From the NCBI GenBank assembly GCA_007127275.1, contig SKZP01000106.1:1-11062 (forward strand): a stretch of DNA of 11,062 nt. The letters run 5' to 3'. The stretch comes from Planctomycetota bacterium (GTDB lineage: Bacteria; Planctomycetota; UBA8742; SKZP01). Position numbers and translations under genes: made by a program. Below are positions 1-11,060 of the stretch, in pieces; the stretch's first letter is position 1, and each line of letters starts with the position of its first letter. Under the pieces are notes generated by a model. It saw only the letters and a list, made by a program, of their open reading frames with translations. It had not been told where the DNA came from and did no database searches.

Positions 1-801
1 CGTCGGGAAAATGCCGGTCCAGCCGATCTCCAGCCCGAAGGAGCCGAACTCAATGCCGGCTGCGAGGCGCGTTGCGGCCCGCCAGCGACTGAACTCGTCG
101 CGCGGATAGCTGTTCTCGTAAATCAGCGCGAACTCGTCGGCGGTACGGAAGGAGACGAATTGAAGCCCCGCGCCGAGCTCAAAGTAAACGCTCGGCGAGG
201 ACGAGCCGAGGTACATGCGCAGCGTGCCCAGCGCACGCGTTTGGAAGGAGTAGAGCGCGGCGAAGTCGTGGTTGTCGTAAACGGCCCCGAAGCTGAACGG
301 CGTAATTTCGAAGCCGTAGTACAGCGGTCCCCCGGTGGAGTGGAGGTGACGGTAAAACAACCCGGCGGAGCCGTTCTTGTGATCGAGGCCGGTGAAGCGG
401 GAGAACTCCATGCCAAGCAGGCCGACGTAGCGCGGAAAGTTTCGGCGCCACTCGAGTTCGCGACGACGCTCAAGCAGGTAGGGCTTGCCGTCTTCTTCGA
501 CGACGGAGTATTCGACCACGTAGTCGCCGTCGCTGGAGACCCGTCGCGACGGCAGCGAACCGAGCATCCGCGCGCGGATCATCGGCGGTTGCTCGCCGTC
601 CGTGCGGTCGCAGGACCCCGAGCCGGTGGAGACGACGGGGCCGTGTTGTTCGGGCGCGACAAATCCCCCGAGCGAGTCCGCCTGCGAACTCCACTGCCAT
701 GGCGTCGAAGCTTGTCCGTGGTGCGAGGCGTGCGCCAATGCCGGTACCGCGAGCAGGGCAAAAATCGCGAGGGCGAACGTCGAAGCGAGGGAAGTACGCA
801 T
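1..801 (-). CDS. Exported, probable outer-membrane beta-barrel-like protein (3' part missing)
   Basis: The frame reads 267 codons from an ATG at 799-801 (minus strand) to the left window edge without a stop, so the C-terminus is missing. Residues 1-25 look like a Sec signal peptide: Arg at position 2, a hydrophobic core (about 9-19) and AXA sites (ALA at 21-23, AHA at 23-25). The next 50 or so residues are low in structure and contain the only Cys (64). From about residue 93, alternating polar and hydrophobic or aromatic stretches appear (around 160-175, 180-198, 204-218, 240-263), including a GAGLQF-type turn near 210 and GIEFGSFGLEIGW near the end, as in outer-membrane barrels. It lacks a lipobox. 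It follows the histidine kinase in the same direction after 194 bases. The ribosome site is weak (GAG 8 nt before ATG). I do not recognise a specific family; localisation is an inference. Confidence 0.8.
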   Translation of the reverse strand, partial: MRTSLASTFALAIFALLAVPALAHASHHGQASTPWQWSSQADSLGGFVAPEQHGPVVSTGSGSCDRTDGEQPPMIRARMLGSLPSRRVSSDGDYVVEYSVVEEDGKPYLLERRRELEWRRNFPRYVGLLGMEFSRFTGLDHKNGSAGLFYRHLHSTGGPLYYGFEITPFSFGAVYDNHDFAALYSFQTRALGTLRMYLGSSSPSVYFELGAGLQFVSFRTADEFALIYENSYPRDEFSRWRAATRLAAGIEFGSFGLEIGWTGIFPT

Positions 802-812
802 GGCTCGACTCG

Positions 813-828
813 TTCGTAGAAGTACGAA
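813..828. repeat. Perfect 6-bp inverted repeat in the leader of the exported gene
   Basis: TTCGTA and TACGAA flank a 4-base centre (GAAG on the plus strand), giving a perfect stem of 6. It lies 12 to 27 nt before the ATG of the exported gene, so in mRNA it would form a tetraloop hairpin directly before the ribosome site, or in DNA it could be a small operator. The 8-mer GAAGTACG inside it recurs at 791-798, within codons 2-4 of the gene. Confidence 0.5.
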
Positions 829-995
829 GGTTTCCGGTTTCGGGTTAACCGTGGCCCGCGCGGCGGGAACCGTACAGGCCGGGCAAGTGACCACAGAATG
901 ACCGAATCCGCGTTCGAATGCAAGAGCGAGCCGCGCCCGATTCCTTTTGTTGGCACTCTGGGCGCAACGGCCCCTTCCGCAAAGAACGGGCGAAT

Positions 996-3233
996 TCATT
1001 CCTCCGTTGTGGGCTCGGAGCCGTTTGATAGCGGCAGCCTGATCACCACGGTGGTTCCTTGGCCCGGCGTGCTGTCGATGTGCATGCGGCCCTGATGTTG
1101 CTCGACGATCCGCTTGGCGATGGGCAGGCCGAGGCCGGTGCCGCGGTGGCGCATACTGAAGAAGGGCTCGAAGACCTTTTCCAGCGCCTCGGCGTCAATG
1201 CCCGTGCCGTAGTCGCGCACCGTCAGCTCGGCGCTGTCGGCTCCCTCGGCGCATGTGCTCGCGGTCAGTTCGATGGATGCCGGCGGCTCGCTGGCTTGCA
1301 CGGCGTTGTGCAGCAGGTTCGAAATGACGTTGACCAGCTGCCGCCGATCGGCGCGCACGAACAATCCGCTCGGAACCTGTTGCTCGAAAGAGATGTTCCG
1401 GGCATCCGGATCGGCGGAGACGAGGCGCACGACTTCGCTGCACAGCGGCTCGAGTTCGACCTCGGCAAGCTGCGGCGGTCGCGGCCGCGCAAACTGCAAC
1501 AGGTCGTGCACCATCTCGTTGAGCGCGTCGATGCGGCTGATGATCTCACCGATCACCTCCCTCTCGGGGGCCTCCTCGTCGAAGCGCTTGCGGATGATGC
1601 CAATGGCGCCACGAATCCCCGCAAGCGGGTTGCGCAACTCATGGGCGACCACCGCCGCCATTTCGCCGAGCCGGGAAAGTGCTTCGCGTTGGCGCAACTC
1701 CGCCTCGGCGTCGCGCAACTCGGTGATGTCGTTGGCCACGGCAAGCACACCCTCCACCTCCTCGGCGAAGATGTCCTGCGAAGCGAGGATGCTCTCTCCC
1801 TCGGACTCCCCCTCGCGAATCGGCGCGTAGCGGACGTCGTAGCTGCGGGTGCGCAGTTGCGTCACCGTTTGCTGTGCACGCCCCTTCAGGGCCCGGTCGA
1901 GCACCTCCGGCTCGACAGGCAACTCCGTGACAAGCTCGGTGATCCGTTGCCCGAGGCGGGATTGCGGCTCGACCCCCAGACCCTCGAGGCCGCGGCCGTG
2001 CAGGAACGTCAGACGGCCCTCGCAGTCGGTCATCCACAGGATGATCGGCGAGTTTACAACGACCATGTGAAAACGGCGCAGCGTCTCGTGCAACTCCTGC
2101 TCGGCCTGCTTGCGGTCGGTGATGTCGTTGCGGATCGCGAGGTACTGATACGGCCTTCCCTGGTTGTCGACCAACGGCACGATGGTCGTGGCGACCCAAT
2201 ACATCTCGCCGGTCTTGCGACGGTTGCAGAGTTCGCCGCGCCAGACCTCGCCTCGGCTGATCGTACGCCACAACTCTTTGAAGAACTCGGGCGGGTGCGT
2301 CCCCGAGTTGACGAGGCGGTGGGTGTTGCCGATCAGTTCGTCGCGGGTATAGCCGGAGATCTCGCAGAAGCGGTCGTTGGCCCAAGTAATGATTCCCTTG
2401 CGGTCGGTGATCGCGACGATCGAGGAGGCGTCGAGGGCGTGCTCGTAGTCGATCAGCCGCCGGGCGATGCGGCGTTGTTCACCGATCGGTTGGCCGGAGA
2501 CGATCGTGCCGATCGCTTCGTCCGAGGTGTTGCGCAACGGTTGCACCGTCCAGGAAACGAGGCGGCGCGCACCGTTTGCGGTGACGAGGTGGCTTTCGTG
2601 CGAGCGCGGCATGCTTTCGCCGTCGAGGATGCGCTCGAACAGGGCGCGGCTCGCCGCGCGGTCCTCGGCGGCGAGTGCGGTGTCGAACCAGTCGCGTCCG
2701 ATGAGCCGCTCGGCCGAGGTCTCCAGCAATTCGCACGCGCGGCCGTTCGCCATGCGCACCTTTCCCTTCGAGGAGAGCACCACAAGCACGACGTCGGCCG
2801 ACTCGAAGAACTGCTGCGCTTCGTTGCGGGCGTGCGCCAGTCGGTCGAGGTCCTGCCGCCGCAGCAGGCAGAAGCCGGCAATCAGCCAGATCAACGCAAG
2901 GGCGATGCCTCGAAAGAGAAACGCCGCCCACTGCGGAAAGGCAGTAGTCACCGGCGAAAACGGCAGCACGACCGCAAGCGCCAGCGAGCCAGCCGCCGCG
3001 ACAAGCAGCGTCACTTTGCGACTCGACTGCCAGAGGCAGGCCGCCATGGGCAGGATATACAAGAGCCCCTTCGCCGAGCCCCACGGCGTGTGCAGGTCCA
3101 CGACGACGGCAAAGAGAAACAAGGTCGCGACCACGCACCACCAGCGCCAGCCGGGCGACGTTGGCACCGGCAGGTTCGACGGTCCGTATGAACTGCCTTT
3201 CGTCAACTCGACCACGCCGACCCTTCGGGGCAC
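996..3233 (-). CDS. Membrane-bound multi-PAS sensor histidine kinase
   Basis: This 745-residue kinase autophosphorylates a histidine in response to an unknown signal. Four hydrophobic segments (about 30-46, 56-68, 73-92, 101-123) with almost no periplasmic loops form the N-terminal membrane unit. Three PAS-like domains follow: about 139-250 (divergent), 262-374 (clear PAS plus PAC) and 385-508. The dimerisation/phosphoacceptor domain carries HELRNPL with His531; the ATPase domain shows the N box (NLLHN, 639-643), G1 (DYGTG, 674-678), an F box (VFEPFF, 687-692) and G2 (GTGLGL, 698-703). The layout resembles NtrB/AtoS-type kinases. The second PAS has the GEVWRG and NRRKTGEMYWV pattern also seen in flavin-binding PAS domains of Aer and NifL. 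Start is a GTG with GAAGG 5 nt upstream; a GTG at codon 7 (3213-3215), also behind GAAGG, is an alternative. No receiver-domain gene is in the window, so the partner is unknown. Confidence 0.95.
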   Translation of the reverse strand: MPRRVGVVELTKGSSYGPSNLPVPTSPGWRWWCVVATLFLFAVVVDLHTPWGSAKGLLYILPMAACLWQSSRKVTLLVAAAGSLALAVVLPFSPVTTAFPQWAAFLFRGIALALIWLIAGFCLLRRQDLDRLAHARNEAQQFFESADVVLVVLSSKGKVRMANGRACELLETSAERLIGRDWFDTALAAEDRAASRALFERILDGESMPRSHESHLVTANGARRLVSWTVQPLRNTSDEAIGTIVSGQPIGEQRRIARRLIDYEHALDASSIVAITDRKGIITWANDRFCEISGYTRDELIGNTHRLVNSGTHPPEFFKELWRTISRGEVWRGELCNRRKTGEMYWVATTIVPLVDNQGRPYQYLAIRNDITDRKQAEQELHETLRRFHMVVVNSPIILWMTDCEGRLTFLHGRGLEGLGVEPQSRLGQRITELVTELPVEPEVLDRALKGRAQQTVTQLRTRSYDVRYAPIREGESEGESILASQDIFAEEVEGVLAVANDITELRDAEAELRQREALSRLGEMAAVVAHELRNPLAGIRGAIGIIRKRFDEEAPEREVIGEIISRIDALNEMVHDLLQFARPRPPQLAEVELEPLCSEVVRLVSADPDARNISFEQQVPSGLFVRADRRQLVNVISNLLHNAVQASEPPASIELTASTCAEGADSAELTVRDYGTGIDAEALEKVFEPFFSMRHRGTGLGLPIAKRIVEQHQGRMHIDSTPGQGTTVVIRLPLSNGSEPTTEE

Positions 3234-3694: not shown

Positions 3695-6600
3695 CTACGA
3701 AGTGGTGACGCGGTCGCGGATGAGACTTTCTTCGCGGCGACAGAATTCGCGGATGCTTCGGTCTTCGACGGCTACGTTGCCGATGAAATGGTCGGTGAGC
3801 TTGCGCAGGTATTGCAGGGCGGCGCCGTGGCCGGCTTGTGGGCGGTTGTCTTGCTGCCGTTGCACGAGCTCGTCAATGGTTTCGAAATACGTGATGATCG
3901 ACTCTTCCCACTCGTAGGCGTGCACCTTGAGGAACCACTCCGCCCAGTACACGGCGAGATCCAACGGGTCGTCGCCGAGCAGATCCTCCCGCACGGTTTC
4001 GGTGAGCAGGGCGTTGAGTGCCGGGATGACGCGCTCGGAGGGAGAGAGGGACCACTCGGCGAAACGGATGAGGATGGCGGTCTTGACGCGGTAGAAGGTG
4101 CCGTCGGTGCCGTCGAAGGCGGCTTCGCTTTGCAGCCACTGGCGCAAGGGGGCGAGGATCTGCTCTTCGAGGCGTTTGGCGGAGAGCAGTTCCAAACCGG
4201 CGGAGACGACGCGTTCAAGGATCTCGAAAAGGAGACTCGGGTTGCCGGCGAGTTGCTCGCGGGCCGTGGCGAGAATGGTACGCAGTTGGATTTGCGAGTC
4301 GTCGTGGGCGCCAAGTTGGGCGAGGCTGCGCGTGGCGGTACTGAGAACCTGCGCGCTGTAACGGGCGTCGTTGACCTGGCGGGCGTCGCGCACGCAGTCC
4401 TCGATGATTCGCACGCCGAGCGTGCGGTTGCCGGTAAGCGGTACCGTGGAAAGCAGGTGTTCCAGCAGCCAGCCGAGACTGATGCGCACGTGGCGCGGCA
4501 ACGGGCTGCGTGACTGGGTGTAGGTGTTGCGCCAGGCGGTGTGCACCTCTTGGATGAGTTCGAGGGCGTCGTGGCGCCGTCCGAGGGCGCAGAGGTGGTG
4601 GGCGCGCGCCACCTTCATGCGGGCGGTAACGTCGAGCCACTGCGTGTCCCGCTCGCCACTGGGTGTTGCCGCTGCGTCGAGTCGGGTGAGTGCCTCGGCG
4701 TCGAGCGTGCTGAGCCGCTTGAGCACCGGCACGTAGCGGTCGGCGGCGTCCTTGTCTTTGAGCCAGCGCACCTTTTTGCAGACGCGCTCCGCCACCTCTT
4801 GCACGCGGCGCCGTCCGTCCTGCGCCCGAGTCGCGCTCAACGCCGAGTCCTGGCGCAGATACGCCGGCAGGTCGCGTCGCTCGAAAATCCGCGCCAGCTC
4901 GTCGAGCACGAGTAGCAGCCGGGCCTTTTCCGGCTCGGAGAGTTGTTTGTAGCCGGCGAGCGCCTCTTCCATCTTCGGGAGCAACTCCTCGAAGAGAAAC
5001 TCCTGGCCGAGCACGGTCAACCAGCGAAGCGGCGCGGCCTCGCTTGCCGCAATCATGGTCAGCGTGGTGCTCAAGGATTGCGCGCGCATATACCTCGTCC
5101 AGAACTCGCGCACCGCCGGATGCGCCCAGCGCAAACTGACGAGCACGAGGTAGGTGGAGATGCGCTCGCGCAACTCGGCAGGCAACTCGGTGAAGGTGTC
5201 CGTTGCGCCACCGACGGCGGCGGCTGCGGCGGGCTCACTCGTGGCGCTGCCCTCGGCGAACTGGTGCAGGGCGTCGCGGCGTTGCTTTTCGCTCGGTTGC
5301 CGCTCGGCGTCGAAGTCGGCAAGGTGCTCGCGCAGCACGCCTTTGAGCATCTGTGCCCGCGAGTGTTCGACGTGTGAGCGCAACGCCGCCAGCGGCAGTT
5401 GCTTGCCGGCGTCGCGCGACACCGTAAGCAACATCTCGGCGAACGGCATCAGCACGGGGGCCTCGCCGTGTCCGGTGTGGCGAATCATGGTGGTGATGCG
5501 TTGCAAGACGCGCACCCACGTTTTCAGAGCCGCGGGGGGCCACTCCATGGTGGCGCGCTCGTACGCGGGGCCGGCTTCGACGTCGAGGGGAACATGCGTC
5601 GGATGCTCGGGCAGTTCCTCGCCGCCGGCGGTGACGGATCCCGTTTCGTCGCCGGCCGAGCGCGAGGCGCGGGCGCGTCGCAACAGGCGGCGCACCAAGG
5701 GCAGCAGGTTGCCGCGACTTATGCCGCGCACATTGAGCTCGCCGAGCAAGTCCTCGCGTTCGCGCTCCAGCGCCACCTCGTCGCCGACCAGCGCAGCGAG
5801 GCGGCTTGCGAGCAGCCAGCGCACCTTGTACGGCAACGAGGCGCGGACCTGGCCGAGCACTTGTTGCACCTTGAGGAGGAGTTGCGGCTCGGCGCCGCCG
5901 GCGTGTGCGAGCCGCTCGAGCAACAGCAGCAGCCACACCGAATGAGTGGTGCGCCACGTTTGCTGTGCCGCCAACGCGTCGAGCAACTCCGCCGAGGGCA
6001 GCTTGCGCAACCGCGCCGCTTCGTCGGTGGACGCGGCCATATTTTGCAGCGTCGCCGACAAGGCCTGTTCGGTCAGCGGGCGTGGCTCGCCGGTCTCGGG
6101 TGTCGCCGCGGCACCGCCGGGCCTGCGTAGCCACGCCCCACTCGCCCACGCATACAGCGCCTCGTCGAAGCGGCCGCGCACCACCTTGAGCTCGGCCAGC
6201 TCGAGCCAGAGCGGCGCAAGCTGAGGGTCTGCGGGGACCGGCAAGCGCTGCGCAATGGCCTCCTCCACCTGGATCTCCCGCTGCCGCGCCTCGTCCGCCT
6301 TCGGCGGCTGCGGCGACTCGACGAACAGCGGCTCGAGCACCGGGCTAGAATCCGTCGCGGGCTCCTTGTGCAGCGTGTCGCGGAACGTCGCCGCGGGAAT
6401 GGGCTCGGTGTCGTTGGAAAGGCCGCTTGCACTGACGGGAAGGGCGGGGCGCTCCGGCTCCTGGCTTGCCTGCTTGATGGAGAGCAACCCGCTGTGAAAA
6501 GCCGTGGCGGCGGTGCGCGCGGCGAGATGCAGCGACTCGTCGAGCAACCGTTGCGGCTGCACCGGTTGCTTGCGCGAGAGCTCGAGCGCGAAGGTATACG

Positions 6601-8356
6601 TCACCACCTCGCGCAACGGCTCGAACGCATCCCGCGGAATGTGCCACACCTCGAACGGCTCGCCGCTCGCCGTTTGCAGGGTCGTGAGCGTCGGCGGGAA
6701 TGTCGCCGGGGCGCTGGCGAGGGAGCGCGGCACAAAGAGGGCCGGGCCGTCGCCGGGCGGCAACGGGATGTAATCGCCGAGGCGGCTCGGGTTGATCCGC
6801 GGACGCAACGAAAACCCCCGCGGCATGTAAACGTTCGCACAGCCGGGCAATGTGGCGAAGCCGTGCCCGGGAAACTCATGAGTCGCCGCGGACGGCTCAC
6901 GCTCCGCACGTACCAGCACCCAACGCTCGAGCTCCGGCAACGCCGCAAGCAGCAGCCCATCAAGATGGCGCTGCGACCGCAGCCGCACCACCTCGACGAA
7001 GCGCGCATACATCTCCGCGTCGAGCAGCCAGGCGGCAGGCTCGTTCCGCGCCGCGGTGTCGGCGCACAGGCGGAACTCCACCGGAACGGCCGGCGGCTTC
7101 GCCTCGACGGGAGCATCCGTTGCCGGCGCGTGTGCGTTCACTTGCGACAACCCCGACGACGACGACGTCGGCCACGTCGGCACGGGCGTTCCCGGTGTGT
7201 GCGCCGCAAGCTCGACGACGGGTGGGGCTTGCGAGACCGCGGCCACGGACGCTGCATGCGGCGCGAGCGTGCGCAGGAGGTGCGTCACGGGCGCGGATTC
7301 GTGCGCCGGCTCGAGCACGGCAAGCGGGTTGTGCTGCCACGGCTGCCACAACGCAAGCCCCGCCGGCAGCGCCTCGGTACGCTCCAGGGCCAACGGCGAA
7401 AACGCCAATCCCCAGCGAACGTAGGCGTCTCCCCCCCAGGGCGCCTCGCCGGGGCGGACACGCCGAAACAGCCAGACCTCTTCTCCGAGCATCTTGCCGC
7501 CCTCGCCGACGCCGCCGCCGTACGTGTCGTCGTTGCCGTCGTTGTCGCCCGCACGTCTGCGCGGCGGCTCGTTCATCTCCACCGGCAACGCGGCAAGCCG
7601 TGACAGGGGCTGTGGGCGTGCGTGCGGCACAAGCAACGGCACGTCGTGCGGAGACGCCTGAAAACGCAGCGCCGGGGCGTGGCCGCCGTCGGCTAGGCGC
7701 AACGTGACGCGCTCCAGCGACGGCACCAACGGCTCCCGCCAGCGGGCGTGGTGTCGCACGAGCGTGACGTTCCACCGTTCCAGTGCGGCGTGCGCCGCAT
7801 GAACGTCGCGCAAATCCGGAGACTCGGCCACCGCGGCTGCGGGCACGGCGAGCCACTCGGTTTCCGAACCGTGACTCGGCGGATACGTTCCCGCGTCCGT
7901 CTCGTCCAGCAAAGCGAGCCCAGCCCACAGCGAGGGAAGGCGCAGCACCGTATGAATGGGGCAGCGGCGGCGGGTGGTACCGGCCTCGTCAGTGAGGGTT
8001 AGCGTGTTCGACTCAATAATCGCGGGACGGAACAAGCGGGGCTGCTCGCTGCGCAAGTAGCGAGCGAACACCGGCGGTCGGCGGCGGTATGACTTGGCGG
8101 CGTAGATCAGCGCCGGTGTCGTTTCTTCCGTTGTGGCACTCGACGCGGCGGCCGCGGCCCCGCACTCGGGGTGCCAGGCCACGCGTGCAAGCCAGAGGCG
8201 CTCCGGCGCTTGCGCCCCTTGCGCATCCGCCAACGGAACCACCTCGGCGCACCGCCGCAGCGCCTCCCCCCACCCGGATTGCGTCAAGGGCGCCACCCAG
8301 CCGCGGGCGCGTTTCGCGCTGCTCGTTGGATGGTTGTCGTTGCGTGCCGCCGCCAT
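3695..8356 (-). CDS. Giant soluble protein of unknown function with TPR-like helical C-terminal half
   Basis: This 1553-residue protein matches no family I recognise. It has no signal peptide and no membrane segment, so it is probably cytoplasmic. Visible layout: residues 1-260, a mixed module rich in Trp, Arg and Leu; a Gly/Asp/Asn-rich linker (about 268-288); a second stretch 292-370; a Pro/Ala/Ser/Thr linker (about 375-425); a compact module 426-600 with Pro-rich loops (IPLPPGDGPALFVPRSLA near 530-548); another linker (630-690); and a long helical region from 690 to the end. Two segments there look like single TPR helix pairs: about 716-742 (LELAELKVVRGRFDEALYAW) and 1246-1276 (HHLCALGRRHDALELIQEVH). 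ATG at 8354-8356 is chosen because GGAG sits 6 nt before it; an in-frame GTG at 8536 would add 60 low-complexity residues and is less likely. It diverges from ftsY and is followed by a 461-base gap, so it is probably transcribed alone. A scaffold role is a guess from the helical repeats. Confidence 0.85.
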   Translation of the reverse strand: MAAARNDNHPTSSAKRARGWVAPLTQSGWGEALRRCAEVVPLADAQGAQAPERLWLARVAWHPECGAAAAASSATTEETTPALIYAAKSYRRRPPVFARYLRSEQPRLFRPAIIESNTLTLTDEAGTTRRRCPIHTVLRLPSLWAGLALLDETDAGTYPPSHGSETEWLAVPAAAVAESPDLRDVHAAHAALERWNVTLVRHHARWREPLVPSLERVTLRLADGGHAPALRFQASPHDVPLLVPHARPQPLSRLAALPVEMNEPPRRRAGDNDGNDDTYGGGVGEGGKMLGEEVWLFRRVRPGEAPWGGDAYVRWGLAFSPLALERTEALPAGLALWQPWQHNPLAVLEPAHESAPVTHLLRTLAPHAASVAAVSQAPPVVELAAHTPGTPVPTWPTSSSSGLSQVNAHAPATDAPVEAKPPAVPVEFRLCADTAARNEPAAWLLDAEMYARFVEVVRLRSQRHLDGLLLAALPELERWVLVRAEREPSAATHEFPGHGFATLPGCANVYMPRGFSLRPRINPSRLGDYIPLPPGDGPALFVPRSLASAPATFPPTLTTLQTASGEPFEVWHIPRDAFEPLREVVTYTFALELSRKQPVQPQRLLDESLHLAARTAATAFHSGLLSIKQASQEPERPALPVSASGLSNDTEPIPAATFRDTLHKEPATDSSPVLEPLFVESPQPPKADEARQREIQVEEAIAQRLPVPADPQLAPLWLELAELKVVRGRFDEALYAWASGAWLRRPGGAAATPETGEPRPLTEQALSATLQNMAASTDEAARLRKLPSAELLDALAAQQTWRTTHSVWLLLLLERLAHAGGAEPQLLLKVQQVLGQVRASLPYKVRWLLASRLAALVGDEVALEREREDLLGELNVRGISRGNLLPLVRRLLRRARASRSAGDETGSVTAGGEELPEHPTHVPLDVEAGPAYERATMEWPPAALKTWVRVLQRITTMIRHTGHGEAPVLMPFAEMLLTVSRDAGKQLPLAALRSHVEHSRAQMLKGVLREHLADFDAERQPSEKQRRDALHQFAEGSATSEPAAAAAVGGATDTFTELPAELRERISTYLVLVSLRWAHPAVREFWTRYMRAQSLSTTLTMIAASEAAPLRWLTVLGQEFLFEELLPKMEEALAGYKQLSEPEKARLLLVLDELARIFERRDLPAYLRQDSALSATRAQDGRRRVQEVAERVCKKVRWLKDKDAADRYVPVLKRLSTLDAEALTRLDAAATPSGERDTQWLDVTARMKVARAHHLCALGRRHDALELIQEVHTAWRNTYTQSRSPLPRHVRISLGWLLEHLLSTVPLTGNRTLGVRIIEDCVRDARQVNDARYSAQVLSTATRSLAQLGAHDDSQIQLRTILATAREQLAGNPSLLFEILERVVSAGLELLSAKRLEEQILAPLRQWLQSEAAFDGTDGTFYRVKTAILIRFAEWSLSPSERVIPALNALLTETVREDLLGDDPLDLAVYWAEWFLKVHAYEWEESIITYFETIDELVQRQQDNRPQAGHGAALQYLRKLTDHFIGNVAVEDRSIREFCRREESLIRDRVTTS

Positions 8357-8362
8357 GCACCG

Positions 8363-8366
8363 CTCC
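8363..8366 (-). promoter_or_regulatory. Ribosome binding site deciding the start of the giant gene
   Basis: GGAG on the minus strand, 6 nt before the ATG at 8354-8356. The upstream in-frame GTG (8534-8536) has no comparable purine-rich stretch at the right distance, and the 60 residues between them are Gly-rich and of non-coding character. This favours the ATG. Confidence 0.55.
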
Positions 8367-8370
8367 GCAG

Positions 8371-8382
8371 ACGAGCCCTCGT
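8371..8382. repeat. Short inverted repeat before the giant gene
   Basis: ACGAG and CTCGT are perfect reverse complements separated by two bases, lying 15 to 26 nt before the ATG of the giant gene. The loop is too small for a good RNA hairpin, so if functional it would be a DNA site. Such short dyads arise by chance in GC-rich DNA. Confidence 0.25.
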
Positions 8383-8567
8383 TCCCTCCCGCAGGCCCCC
8401 AACCCTCGCTACCACGTCGGTGCGTGCCGGTCCATCCCGAGGCCCAGGCGCAGCCGCCGGTGCCCCCTTTCAGCGCAGCAACGGCATTCGCAGCTTGTCC
8501 TTCTCGGCCCTGCCCCCGGAGGCTCGACGTTTGCACGTGCCGGCCGGTTCGCGGGGGTTGCGGTAGG

Positions 8568-8625: not shown

Positions 8626-9669
8626 ATGGGGTTATTCGGCAAGAAGAAAAAGAGCGGCGGCGTGGAAGAGGTCGCCGAGGCCGTGGCGCGCGCCAGCGGT
8701 GAAGCGCAAGAAGAAGATGGCGTCGCGGAGACGCCGCGCGGGGAGCGGCGCAAGAACTGGTGGCAGCGCCTGCGCGAGGGACTTTCGAAAACGGTCGGCA
8801 GCTTCTTCGGCGGCATCCGTGCGGTTGTACTCGGCCGGCGCGTCGACGAGGATTTGATTGAGCAAGTTTGGGAGCAAATGATTGCTGCGGACATGGGCCC
8901 GGACCTTGCCGACGAGGTGACGGCGCGGCTGCGCACGGCGTGGAAGAAAGGAGAGGTAACCGAAGGGGAGCAGGTCATCCCGTTTCTGAAGCAGCAGTTT
9001 ATTGAGGTGCTTTCCGCGAAAGGCAACGAGGTGACCTTGGCGGCGACGCCGCCGACGGTGATTCTTGTGGTCGGCGTCAACGGAACGGGAAAAACGACCT
9101 CGATCGGCAAGCTCGCCTGGCATTACCAGCAGCAGGGCAAGAAGGTCATGATCGCGGCATGCGACACCTTCCGCGCGGCGGCGGAGAGCCAGCTCGAAAT
9201 TTGGGCAACGCAACGAGTCGGCTGCGCCTTTCACAAAGGGGAACCGAAGTCGGACCCGGCGTCTGTCGCCTTCACCGCGGCACAGCGGGCAAAGGAAGAA
9301 GGGGTCGAGATCCTGATTGTCGACACCGCCGGGCGGTTGCACACCGACCGCAATCTGATGGAGCAGCTTGCAAAGATCAAGCGCAGCCTCGGCAAGAACG
9401 TGGACGGCGCGCCACACGAGACACTGCTCGTGGTCGACGCAAACTACGGCCTAAACGTGATTCAGCAGACCGAGAAGTTTCTCGCCTCCGCCGACGTCAC
9501 GGGATTGTTTCTCGCCAAGCTCGACGCGACCGGAAAAGGAGGCGTGGTGTTGAACATTCACCAGCGCTTCGACGTACCGGTCAAGTTCGTCGGCACCGGC
9601 GAACAACGCGAAGACTTCGCCGCCTTCGACGCCACACAGTTCGTCGAGGCGCTCTTCGCAGAAGAGTAG
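8626..9669 (+). CDS. ftsY: Signal recognition particle receptor FtsY
   Basis: FtsY is the membrane-associated GTPase that docks ribosome-SRP complexes at the Sec translocon by pairing with Ffh. The product is 347 residues: a short acidic A region with a basic start (MGLFGKKKK), an amphipathic WWQRLREGLSKTVGSFF helix (45-61) that probably helps membrane contact, the N domain (to about 140), and the G domain. Visible GTPase motifs: GVNGTGKTT (150-158), DTFRAAAESQL (180-190), DTAGR (233-237), AKLDATGKGG (297-306) and GTGEQRED (323-330). The usual DATTGQN/DASTGQN segment reads DANYGLN (271-277) and the usual TKLDGTAKGG is altered, which is unusual. ATG at 8626 is preceded by GAGG (4 nt) and GAGGA (9 nt); the frame is open far upstream but that part is antisense to the giant gene. 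It is divergent from the giant gene and convergent with the tail-fibre-like gene. Confidence 0.97.
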   Translation: MGLFGKKKKSGGVEEVAEAVARASGEAQEEDGVAETPRGERRKNWWQRLREGLSKTVGSFFGGIRAVVLGRRVDEDLIEQVWEQMIAADMGPDLADEVTARLRTAWKKGEVTEGEQVIPFLKQQFIEVLSAKGNEVTLAATPPTVILVVGVNGTGKTTSIGKLAWHYQQQGKKVMIAACDTFRAAAESQLEIWATQRVGCAFHKGEPKSDPASVAFTAAQRAKEEGVEILIVDTAGRLHTDRNLMEQLAKIKRSLGKNVDGAPHETLLVVDANYGLNVIQQTEKFLASADVTGLFLAKLDATGKGGVVLNIHQRFDVPVKFVGTGEQREDFAAFDATQFVEALFAEE

Positions 9670-9860: not shown

Positions 9861-11060
9861 CTAAACGACGTACCAGTTTTCGGTGTCCGCGGCGTAGAGA
9901 GTGACGGCTCGCCCGTCGCCCTTGATCAGGTAGTCGGCAGCGCCTTCAATGCTGTTGCCCGCGGCGGGTTGGAGGACGGTTTCGCGGTCCCCGCCAGGCT
10001 TGTGCTTGACGGCGACGGCCATGCCGAGCACGGCGGCGGTCAGCGGCGGCAAGTCAATGGTTGTTGGCTGCTCTGTGGTTTCGACAACGAGTAGGTCGCC
10101 GGCTTCGGCACTGGTGCTACTTGCGTTGACGGGGACGACACGCATGTAGGCCCGGTCAAGCACGGCCTCGCCAAGGCGGCCGCGACCGGTGGCTTGGTCG
10201 CGCCACAACATGGCGGCGGGTGTGGTGCCGGGGTTGTCGCTTTGCGCGGCAAGCTCGACGCCGGGGGTGTGCGCCGGAGCGGCGAGGTCGAGCGTGGCGG
10301 CCATGATGCTCCAGCGTTTGCTCTCGCTGCCCAGGGCTTGGCCGTCGGTGGCTGGCTCGAAGCGGTCGCCGGCGCCGAGTGCCAGGGTGTCGGCGGCGCT
10401 GCGGACGAGGCGCACGTCGCCACCGAGGCGCACCGCCGGTGCGTCGCCGCCGTCGCCGCCGCCAATGCCGGCGTTGATGTCGAGTGTGTCTTGCGGCTCG
10501 CTGGTGTTGATCCCGAGACGGCCGGGGCGAGGCTCGCCGACGTTGTCGCGAAAGGTCAGCGCCAATTCGGCGCTGCCGGGGCTTCCGGTGGGGGCGAGGC
10601 GCGGCCCGCCGGTGACACGACCGAGTTCGAACGACTCGCGGCCCCAGGCAAGCGCCACCGGCTCTCCGCCGGCGTGGCCGTCGTAGAGGCCAAACTCCAA
10701 CGTCGAGACTCGCTCCGGCGACGTTGCATCCGGCAGGTACTCCGGCGGCGCAACGAGCAACACGCCGCTTGCCGTGCCAGCGGTGAAGCGGGCCTCGCCA
10801 GGGTCTGCCTTGCGACTCGGGGTGGTGTAGTCCCAGCGGCCGTCGTCGGAGTGGATGCGGCCAATGGCGGTGAGGTGGGCAATGTGGGGCGGACGCTCGA
10901 GGTGGCCGGTTTCGAGGTGTCGCGGCAGAGCCTCGGAAGGGCCGTAGCGGCCGTCGTAGGGATGGAGGTCGGGATGGCGGGTGGCGTCGAGGGTGACGCT
11001 GGGGGCGCTGATCTCGTAGGGGCAGCGCATGGGGGCGAGCGGCCGGTGTGGCGTCAGATG
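9861..11060 (-). CDS. Phage tail-fibre-like protein, C-terminal part (5' end outside window)
   Basis: The frame is open from the right edge to a TAG at 9861-9863. The first in-window ATG (11028-11030) has no ribosome site (a C-run precedes it) and the frame continues upstream of it, so the gene very likely starts beyond the window. Numbering from that ATG gives 389 residues. Typical tail-fibre signatures: GRLGINTSEPQDTLDIN (170-186), comparable to the GIGT..P...LDV repeats of fibre proteins; GQALGSESKRWSIMAATLDLA (230-250), like the 'LG....RW..lya' segments; and a C-terminal cap (325-389) of the form 'TIDLP...G..V.VKH...G..T.LQPAAGNSIEGA..Y......AVTLY...ENWYVV'. The family forms trimeric fibres of phages, tailocins and related contractile structures that contact a target surface. 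No other phage structural gene is in view, so prophage, tailocin or host appendage cannot be told apart. It is convergent with ftsY. Confidence 0.75.
   Translation of the reverse strand, partial: HLTPHRPLAPMRCPYEISAPSVTLDATRHPDLHPYDGRYGPSEALPRHLETGHLERPPHIAHLTAIGRIHSDDGRWDYTTPSRKADPGEARFTAGTASGVLLVAPPEYLPDATSPERVSTLEFGLYDGHAGGEPVALAWGRESFELGRVTGGPRLAPTGSPGSAELALTFRDNVGEPRPGRLGINTSEPQDTLDINAGIGGGDGGDAPAVRLGGDVRLVRSAADTLALGAGDRFEPATDGQALGSESKRWSIMAATLDLAAPAHTPGVELAAQSDNPGTTPAAMLWRDQATGRGRLGEAVLDRAYMRVVPVNASSTSAEAGDLLVVETTEQPTTIDLPPLTAAVLGMAVAVKHKPGGDRETVLQPAAGNSIEGAADYLIKGDGRAVTLYAADTENWYVV

Follow-up and report, generated by a model that had tools for sequence, protein, structure and literature searches.

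A very divergent fvmX7 homologue encoded beside ftsY in a planctomycete, a probable subunit of an FtsH ternary machine

The gene and its protein

The stretch of DNA analysed here (the window, 11,062 nucleotides) is the entire contig SKZP01000106.1 of a Planctomycetota bacterium (GenBank assembly GCA_007127275.1). This contig is designated C318 and its genome G000; the assembly has 3.5 Mb and is 54% complete, and the GC content of the contig is 67%. The minus strand carries a single open frame (3695-8356) coding for a protein of 1553 residues. Sequence comparison identifies this protein as a very divergent homologue of the fvmX7 proteins (Pfam PF20005, "FtsH ternary system domain X7"; X7 in the following). 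We consider it likely that it belongs, most probably as a large soluble scaffold, to a machine of the FtsH ternary type (FtsH-MoxR-vWA), the genes for which would be scattered over the genome.

The frame remains open upstream of the ATG at 8356, as far as a GTG at 8536. Over 3695-8536 the GC fractions at the three codon positions (0.72/0.52/0.83) are coding-like. The highest 19-residue Kyte-Doolittle mean, 1.32, argues against a membrane segment anywhere in the protein. A preliminary description made from the sequence alone had already named the uninterrupted frame, a good ribosome-binding site, the absence of a membrane segment, and the divergent orientation to ftsY, and all four are borne out. 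The features are as follows.

3695..8356, minus strand: gene of the fvmX7-type putative scaffold, ATG start, 1553 residues
8363..8366, minus strand: likely ribosome-binding site, GGAG, six bases before the ATG at 8356 (from the sequence)
7247..8356, minus strand: residues 1-370, N-terminal region corresponding in position to the first fvmX7 half of relatives; nothing matched, model unreliable
6581..7114, minus strand: residues 415-592, alpha/beta module that matches the second fvmX7 half (HMM and model)
3698..6301, minus strand: residues 686-1553, predicted all-helical solenoid (model and tail HMM)
5678..5836, minus strand: residues 841-893, block of highest conservation in the family, RWLL...GD...ERxRExLLxEL..G (family comparison)
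3707..3736, minus strand: residues 1541-1550, REESLIRDRV, C-terminal motif common to relatives (family comparison)
8626..9669, plus strand: ftsY, divergent neighbour (Pfam SRP54, E 6.6e-67; SRP54_N, E 1.4e-8), not considered part of the system

Two N-terminal modules had been proposed. The second (about residues 415-592) is supported by homology and by a modest structure model, in which residues 431-520 reach a pLDDT (predicted local distance difference test) of 71-84; the first (residues 1-370) could not be confirmed, as the model of this part, with most pLDDT values below 50, is unreliable. The helical nature of the C-terminal half is upheld by the model, which predicts 39 helices for residues 686-1553 (mean pLDDT 59.7). 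As for the proposed TPR-like pairs, helices are predicted, while the Pfam scan of the protein listed TPR_12 alone (residues 1244-1298; 23.0 bits with a cut-off of 30.1) and no TPR profile above its cut-off. Profiles recognised no enzyme motif in X7. Fold searches gave nothing firm, and a match of the window protein to a solved structure (E 0.16) was taken as chance.

Relationship to the fvmX7 family

When used as query against 5.8 billion proteins, the window protein found itself alone (the best 7988 word-sharing candidates were scored). Direct searches with it gave no match among the genome contigs and plasmids searched, nor in PADLOC or NCBIfam. Distant relatives were first sought by a profile search of 60 related genomes, which gave two faint matches beyond the window. 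The match in G030 belongs to an open frame, 1001 residues long and truncated by the contig end, which aligns to window residues 419-890 by BLASTP (E 9e-12) and matches Pfam fvmX7 with an E of 5.3e-23. A C-terminal piece from G037 gave only short BLASTP matches to the window protein (best E 4.2), despite its link by profile search.

With a three-row profile, more relatives were found among 392 genomes from the phylum. The fvmX7 profile scored above its cut-off in six of the eight relatives scanned, these being the six which have the N-terminal region (L004, 5e-23 [5.3e-23]; L022, 9e-24; L024, 9e-25; L025, 3e-18; L026, 4e-17; L028, 2e-9), and did not match the two C-terminal pieces L005 and L027. 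A database search with the relative from G132 returned 19 proteins including itself, 18 of them with PF20005; a profile search with the ten-row alignment A2 returned the window alone. The preliminary description had seen no recognised family, which is true of the single sequence only: its distant planctomycete relatives lead to Pfam fvmX7.

For the reverse comparison, hidden Markov models (HMMs) were built without the window protein. The family HMM consists of 28 sequences, which are 11 pieces from the G genomes and P0003-P0019; P0001 (the window), P0002 (identical to the G132 sequence), and P0020 (weak and partial) were excluded. Some genes are present in this set as two pieces, many members are close kin, and the assignment of L070:5692-6462 as an X7 tail is a presumption based on its position before MoxR. 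This HMM found the window protein with 110 bits in two collinear stretches (0/200 shuffles). A profile search for each module separately, as suggested in the preliminary description, showed that both parts match alone: a tail-only HMM scored 77.5 bits and an X7-only HMM, with filters off, 36.9 bits (residues 401-640, collinear with model positions 258-419), whereas none of 500 shuffles scored above 4.2 bits.

The window protein shares with the PF20005 proteins the collinear second half of the domain, the helical tail, the RWLL/GD/ERxRE block, and the IRDRV C-terminus. It differs in that the Pfam profile misses it, in that the first half of the domain is unrecognisable, and in its length (1553 residues, compared to 1189-1335 in the four relatives which could be read whole).

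As a separate observation, the fvmX7 protein from G025 (L028:4774-8343, plus strand) has a weak, sub-threshold match (residues 326-383, E 0.0052) to bpX2 from the beta-propeller ternary systems, which hints at a possible relationship between bpX2 and the X7 module.

Partner genes in related genomes and in G000

Genomes with X7 were counted with the ten-row profile of A2 in the 392 genomes, supplemented by 14 control genomes for the partner searches. The 11 genomes retained, including G000 itself, all have an E under 1e-80. The weak matches in the other 21 of the 32 matched genomes (best E 1.3e-10, at most 39.3 bits) are confined to the profile from position 467 onwards and were dropped as repeat cross-hits. 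Two X7 copies are disrupted, by assembly error or decay: the one at G161:C116:7589-11368 has an internal TAG and the one at G188:C37, about 21819-25589, is split across two frames.

The system-specific vWA protein ivWA (PF19997) was found in 16 of the 392 genomes (13 over the cut-off) and in none of the 14 controls. It is present in 11/11 genomes with X7 (10 over the cut-off, G025 below) compared to 5/381 others (3 over the cut-off). The corresponding Fisher p is 6e-18, or 1.5e-16 when the cut-off is applied, both uncorrected for kinship. In G121, ivWA and fvmX5 are found about 3 kb apart (G121:C1:5619824-5623205) and the genome has no confident X7; either its X7 is too divergent to be seen or this is a set without X7.

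The most complete cluster was read in G062, where X6-X5-FtsH-X3-analog-X7-MoxR-ivWA follow each other on one strand (FtsH with AAA and M41 domains; X6 sub-threshold, 21.1 vs. 27 bits). In G082, FtsH, the X3-analog, and the N-terminal piece of X7 end one contig, and the C-terminal piece of X7, MoxR, and ivWA start another. G030 has X6 (25.8 bits, cut-off 27)-X5-FtsH-kinase-X3-analog-X7, with MoxR and ivWA together on a separate contig. In G025, X7 is followed by MoxR, and the below-cut-off ivWA is on another contig. The survey of gene neighbourhoods for a recurrent partner, which had been recommended in the preliminary description, thus places the X7 genes of relatives in FtsH-MoxR-vWA clusters. 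The kinase gene between FtsH and the X3-analog in G030 (L004:3507-4247, minus strand) is of the Zeta-toxin/AAA_33 type and is a possible effector.

A different arrangement was found in f23, a planctomycete family for which seven genomes are available. ivWA is present in 7/7 and X7 in 6/7 of these, with one match each. In the five genomes read (G037, G132, G175, G188, G200) the set is spread across contigs: FtsH is with the X3-analog in 4/5 and MoxR with ivWA in 4/5, and the X7 contig is devoid of FtsH and ivWA in 5/5. The X7 contig differs from the ivWA contig in 6/6 and from the FtsH contig in 5/5 of the genomes searched. Contig ends limit these counts, and X7 itself is cut by a contig end in G037 and G200. 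In G132 and G037, X7 has a divergently oriented fvmX6 as its neighbour, and likewise in G188, where the fvmX6 match is below the cut-off.

Other genes near X7 were also seen in f23. Related proteins are encoded downstream of X7 on the X7 contigs of G037 (L005:2828-4084, with FHA domains) and G188 (L023:17287-18321), and in G132 a frame for a PRMT-like methyltransferase (L024:10458-11687, plus strand) has a four-base overlap with the end of the X7 gene.

Walker A and B, LRPGR, and HExGH motifs are present, and membrane segments absent, in all eight ternary-type FtsH proteins (one of them a fragment). The two membrane FtsH proteins used for comparison also consist of AAA+ and M41 domains but have two membrane segments each.

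Two of the partner genes were found in G000. ivWA is encoded on contig C612 (C612:3175-3534, E 9.2e-18, over the cut-off) within a frame of 642 residues, adjoining a biotin-ligase-like gene on the opposite strand. At the end of contig C451 there is an FtsH-type fragment (459 residues) which has Walker A, Walker B, LRPGR, and HEAGH; its N-terminus, where the inactive N-terminal AAA domain would lie, is lost to the contig end. This fragment shows 39-45% sequence identity to the eight ternary-type FtsH proteins compared to 28-32% to three other AAA proteins, two of them membrane FtsH. In a tree of 12 sequences, which is unrooted, it is on the ternary-type side of the split from these three (support 0.999). 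X7, ivWA, and FtsH are thus on three separate contigs, and X7 and ivWA are surrounded by other genes. Elsewhere, the fvmX3-analog was found in 10 and fvmX5 in 9 of the 14 genomes searched, and each in 0/14 controls. Low-scoring matches to bpMoxR (PF20030) could not be used as a system marker because they occur in 12 of the 14 control genomes, so only the strong class was used for MoxR.

Within the window, none of the five main frames scanned against Pfam is a MoxR, vWA, or FtsH gene, and searches for all three gave no location on C318, in line with the preliminary description, which had found no MoxR or vWA partner there. Downstream of X7, after a gap of 461 bases and on the same strand, a histidine kinase is encoded (996-3233, minus strand; several PAS domains, HisKA, and HATPase_c by Pfam; hydrophobic N-terminus by eye). 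It has a four-base overlap with a 333-residue frame (1-999, minus strand) which is cut by the contig end and has no significant match in Pfam or NCBIfam. A frame of 399 residues (9861-11060, minus strand), also without a family in Pfam or NCBIfam, resembles, as we presume, phage-tail-like collar repeats. The adjacency to ftsY, to which the preliminary description had pointed, looks incidental. A functional tie between the two genes was weighed and rejected; none of the other X7 contexts showed an ftsY on reading, although no search aimed at it was made in them.

A putative FtsH-MoxR-vWA machine and its alternatives

Kaur et al. (2020, eLife, PMC7159879) class FtsH ternary systems among the conflict systems and present MoxR and a vWA protein as chaperone and co-chaperone. 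That paper describes two FtsH-type AAA+ domains, and its main text contains neither "M41" nor "fvmX". X7 is therefore tied to it via the description in Pfam, and the FtsH partners found here differ in carrying an M41 protease domain. Among the matches listed in a literature search, no paper contained fvmX7, fvmX3, fvmX5, or PF20005, "ivwa" appeared, judging from titles, in another sense, and Kaur et al. (2020) was the only paper with the phrase "FtsH ternary system". G000 resembles these systems in having ivWA and an FtsH-type AAA+ protein, and the full gene set is present in relatives. G000 differs in that its genes are not clustered and no effector was seen.

We infer a complex in which X7 would serve as scaffold, because no subunit encoded in the G062 cluster is larger, and because X7 has no profile-recognised enzyme motif and is mostly a predicted helical solenoid with one conserved module. 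The C-terminal alpha-solenoid and the alpha/beta module would bind the vWA protein, the MoxR ATPase, and/or a client. The scaffold would bring the client to an FtsH-type AAA+ zinc protease, which would unfold and cut, or remodel, it. This engine is probably soluble, given that in the ternary-type FtsH proteins the motifs for ATPase and zinc protease are intact and membrane segments are absent. Among the nearest known systems we count the MecA/YpbH C-terminal domain, an adaptor of the ClpC protease. The preliminary description had suggested a linker-joined helical scaffold of a machine with MoxR and vWA proteins, and this is supported by the fvmX7 relatives in FtsH-MoxR-vWA clusters and by ivWA and the FtsH fragment in G000. 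Its expectation of undescribed biology was not confirmed, as fvmX7 is a Pfam family, even if the profile misses the window protein.

Several points weigh against an fvmX7-type subunit of such a machine. The PF20005 profile does not list the window protein up to E 10, which is why we describe it as an fvmX7 homologue and not as a Pfam member. Under default filters the X7-only HMM misses it, and much of the HMM score sits in helical repeats, which can mislead. The first half of the fvmX7 domain is not detected by HMM: matches start at residue 415-416, and residues 1-370 match nothing. The p values for co-occurrence do not take kinship into account, and the 11 genomes with X7 represent six families, with 6/11 from f23; G121, G147, and G221 have ivWA over the cut-off and no confident X7. 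In G000, the best match to a system-type MoxR has 49 bits, compared to 198 or more in each of the nine other genomes searched, and the X3-analog and X5 were not found, absences which mean little because the assembly is only 54% complete. We know of no experiment on X7 or the system.

That the set is a conflict system, with X7 as scaffold in anti-phage defence or cell suicide, would be compatible with the proposed machine, and we regard it as possible but somewhat doubtful. It would agree with the family assignment and the genomic arguments of Kaur et al. (2020), and a zeta-toxin-like kinase gene is found inside the G030 cluster. However, no other effector was recognised among those X7 neighbours which were scanned (not every neighbour was), and the single-copy, near-universal occurrence in f23 (X7 6/7, ivWA 7/7) is unlike that of patchy defence islands. 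Together these observations suit an inherited machine no less well, although f23 offers just seven genomes. We tentatively raise another possibility, that the set in some planctomycetes is, instead of a conflict system, a cytosolic machine which is constitutive and vertically inherited. In it, a soluble FtsH metalloprotease would be coupled via X7 to a MoxR-vWA chaperone, with the single-copy genes scattered among ordinary genes, and the window lineage would have rebuilt the first, perhaps client-facing, part of the scaffold.

It is unlikely that the window protein is an X7-derived orphan which is now detached from the FtsH machine and works in a different complex, perhaps one tied to ftsY and membrane insertion. 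The gene stands alone beside ftsY, the N-terminal region has diverged or been replaced, and a system-type MoxR, the X3-analog, and X5 were not seen in G000, but this genome is incomplete and has kept ivWA and a matching FtsH fragment. Also, it is not unusual for X7 to stand alone, since in f23, too, it is on other contigs than ivWA and FtsH, as far as contig ends allow. It is very improbable that the window protein is a TPR or HEAT-like repeat protein of a generic type, with a resemblance to fvmX7 in its helices only, given that the module at 415-592 is collinear at 36.9 bits (4.2 for the best shuffle), that cross-hits in the 392 genomes do not exceed 39.3 bits (with a different profile, so a rough yardstick only), and that ivWA co-occurs.

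The family and the system were already known from genome comparison. The present analysis adds a divergent copy which stands by itself, a scattered gene arrangement in planctomycetes, and a test of co-occurrence. An fvmX7-type subunit can escape profile detection, so that standalone copies remain "hypothetical", and methods based on gene neighbourhood miss the machine because lone X7 genes have their partners elsewhere. Its single-copy presence in nearly all available genomes of one planctomycete family raises the question whether this machine serves defence or housekeeping.
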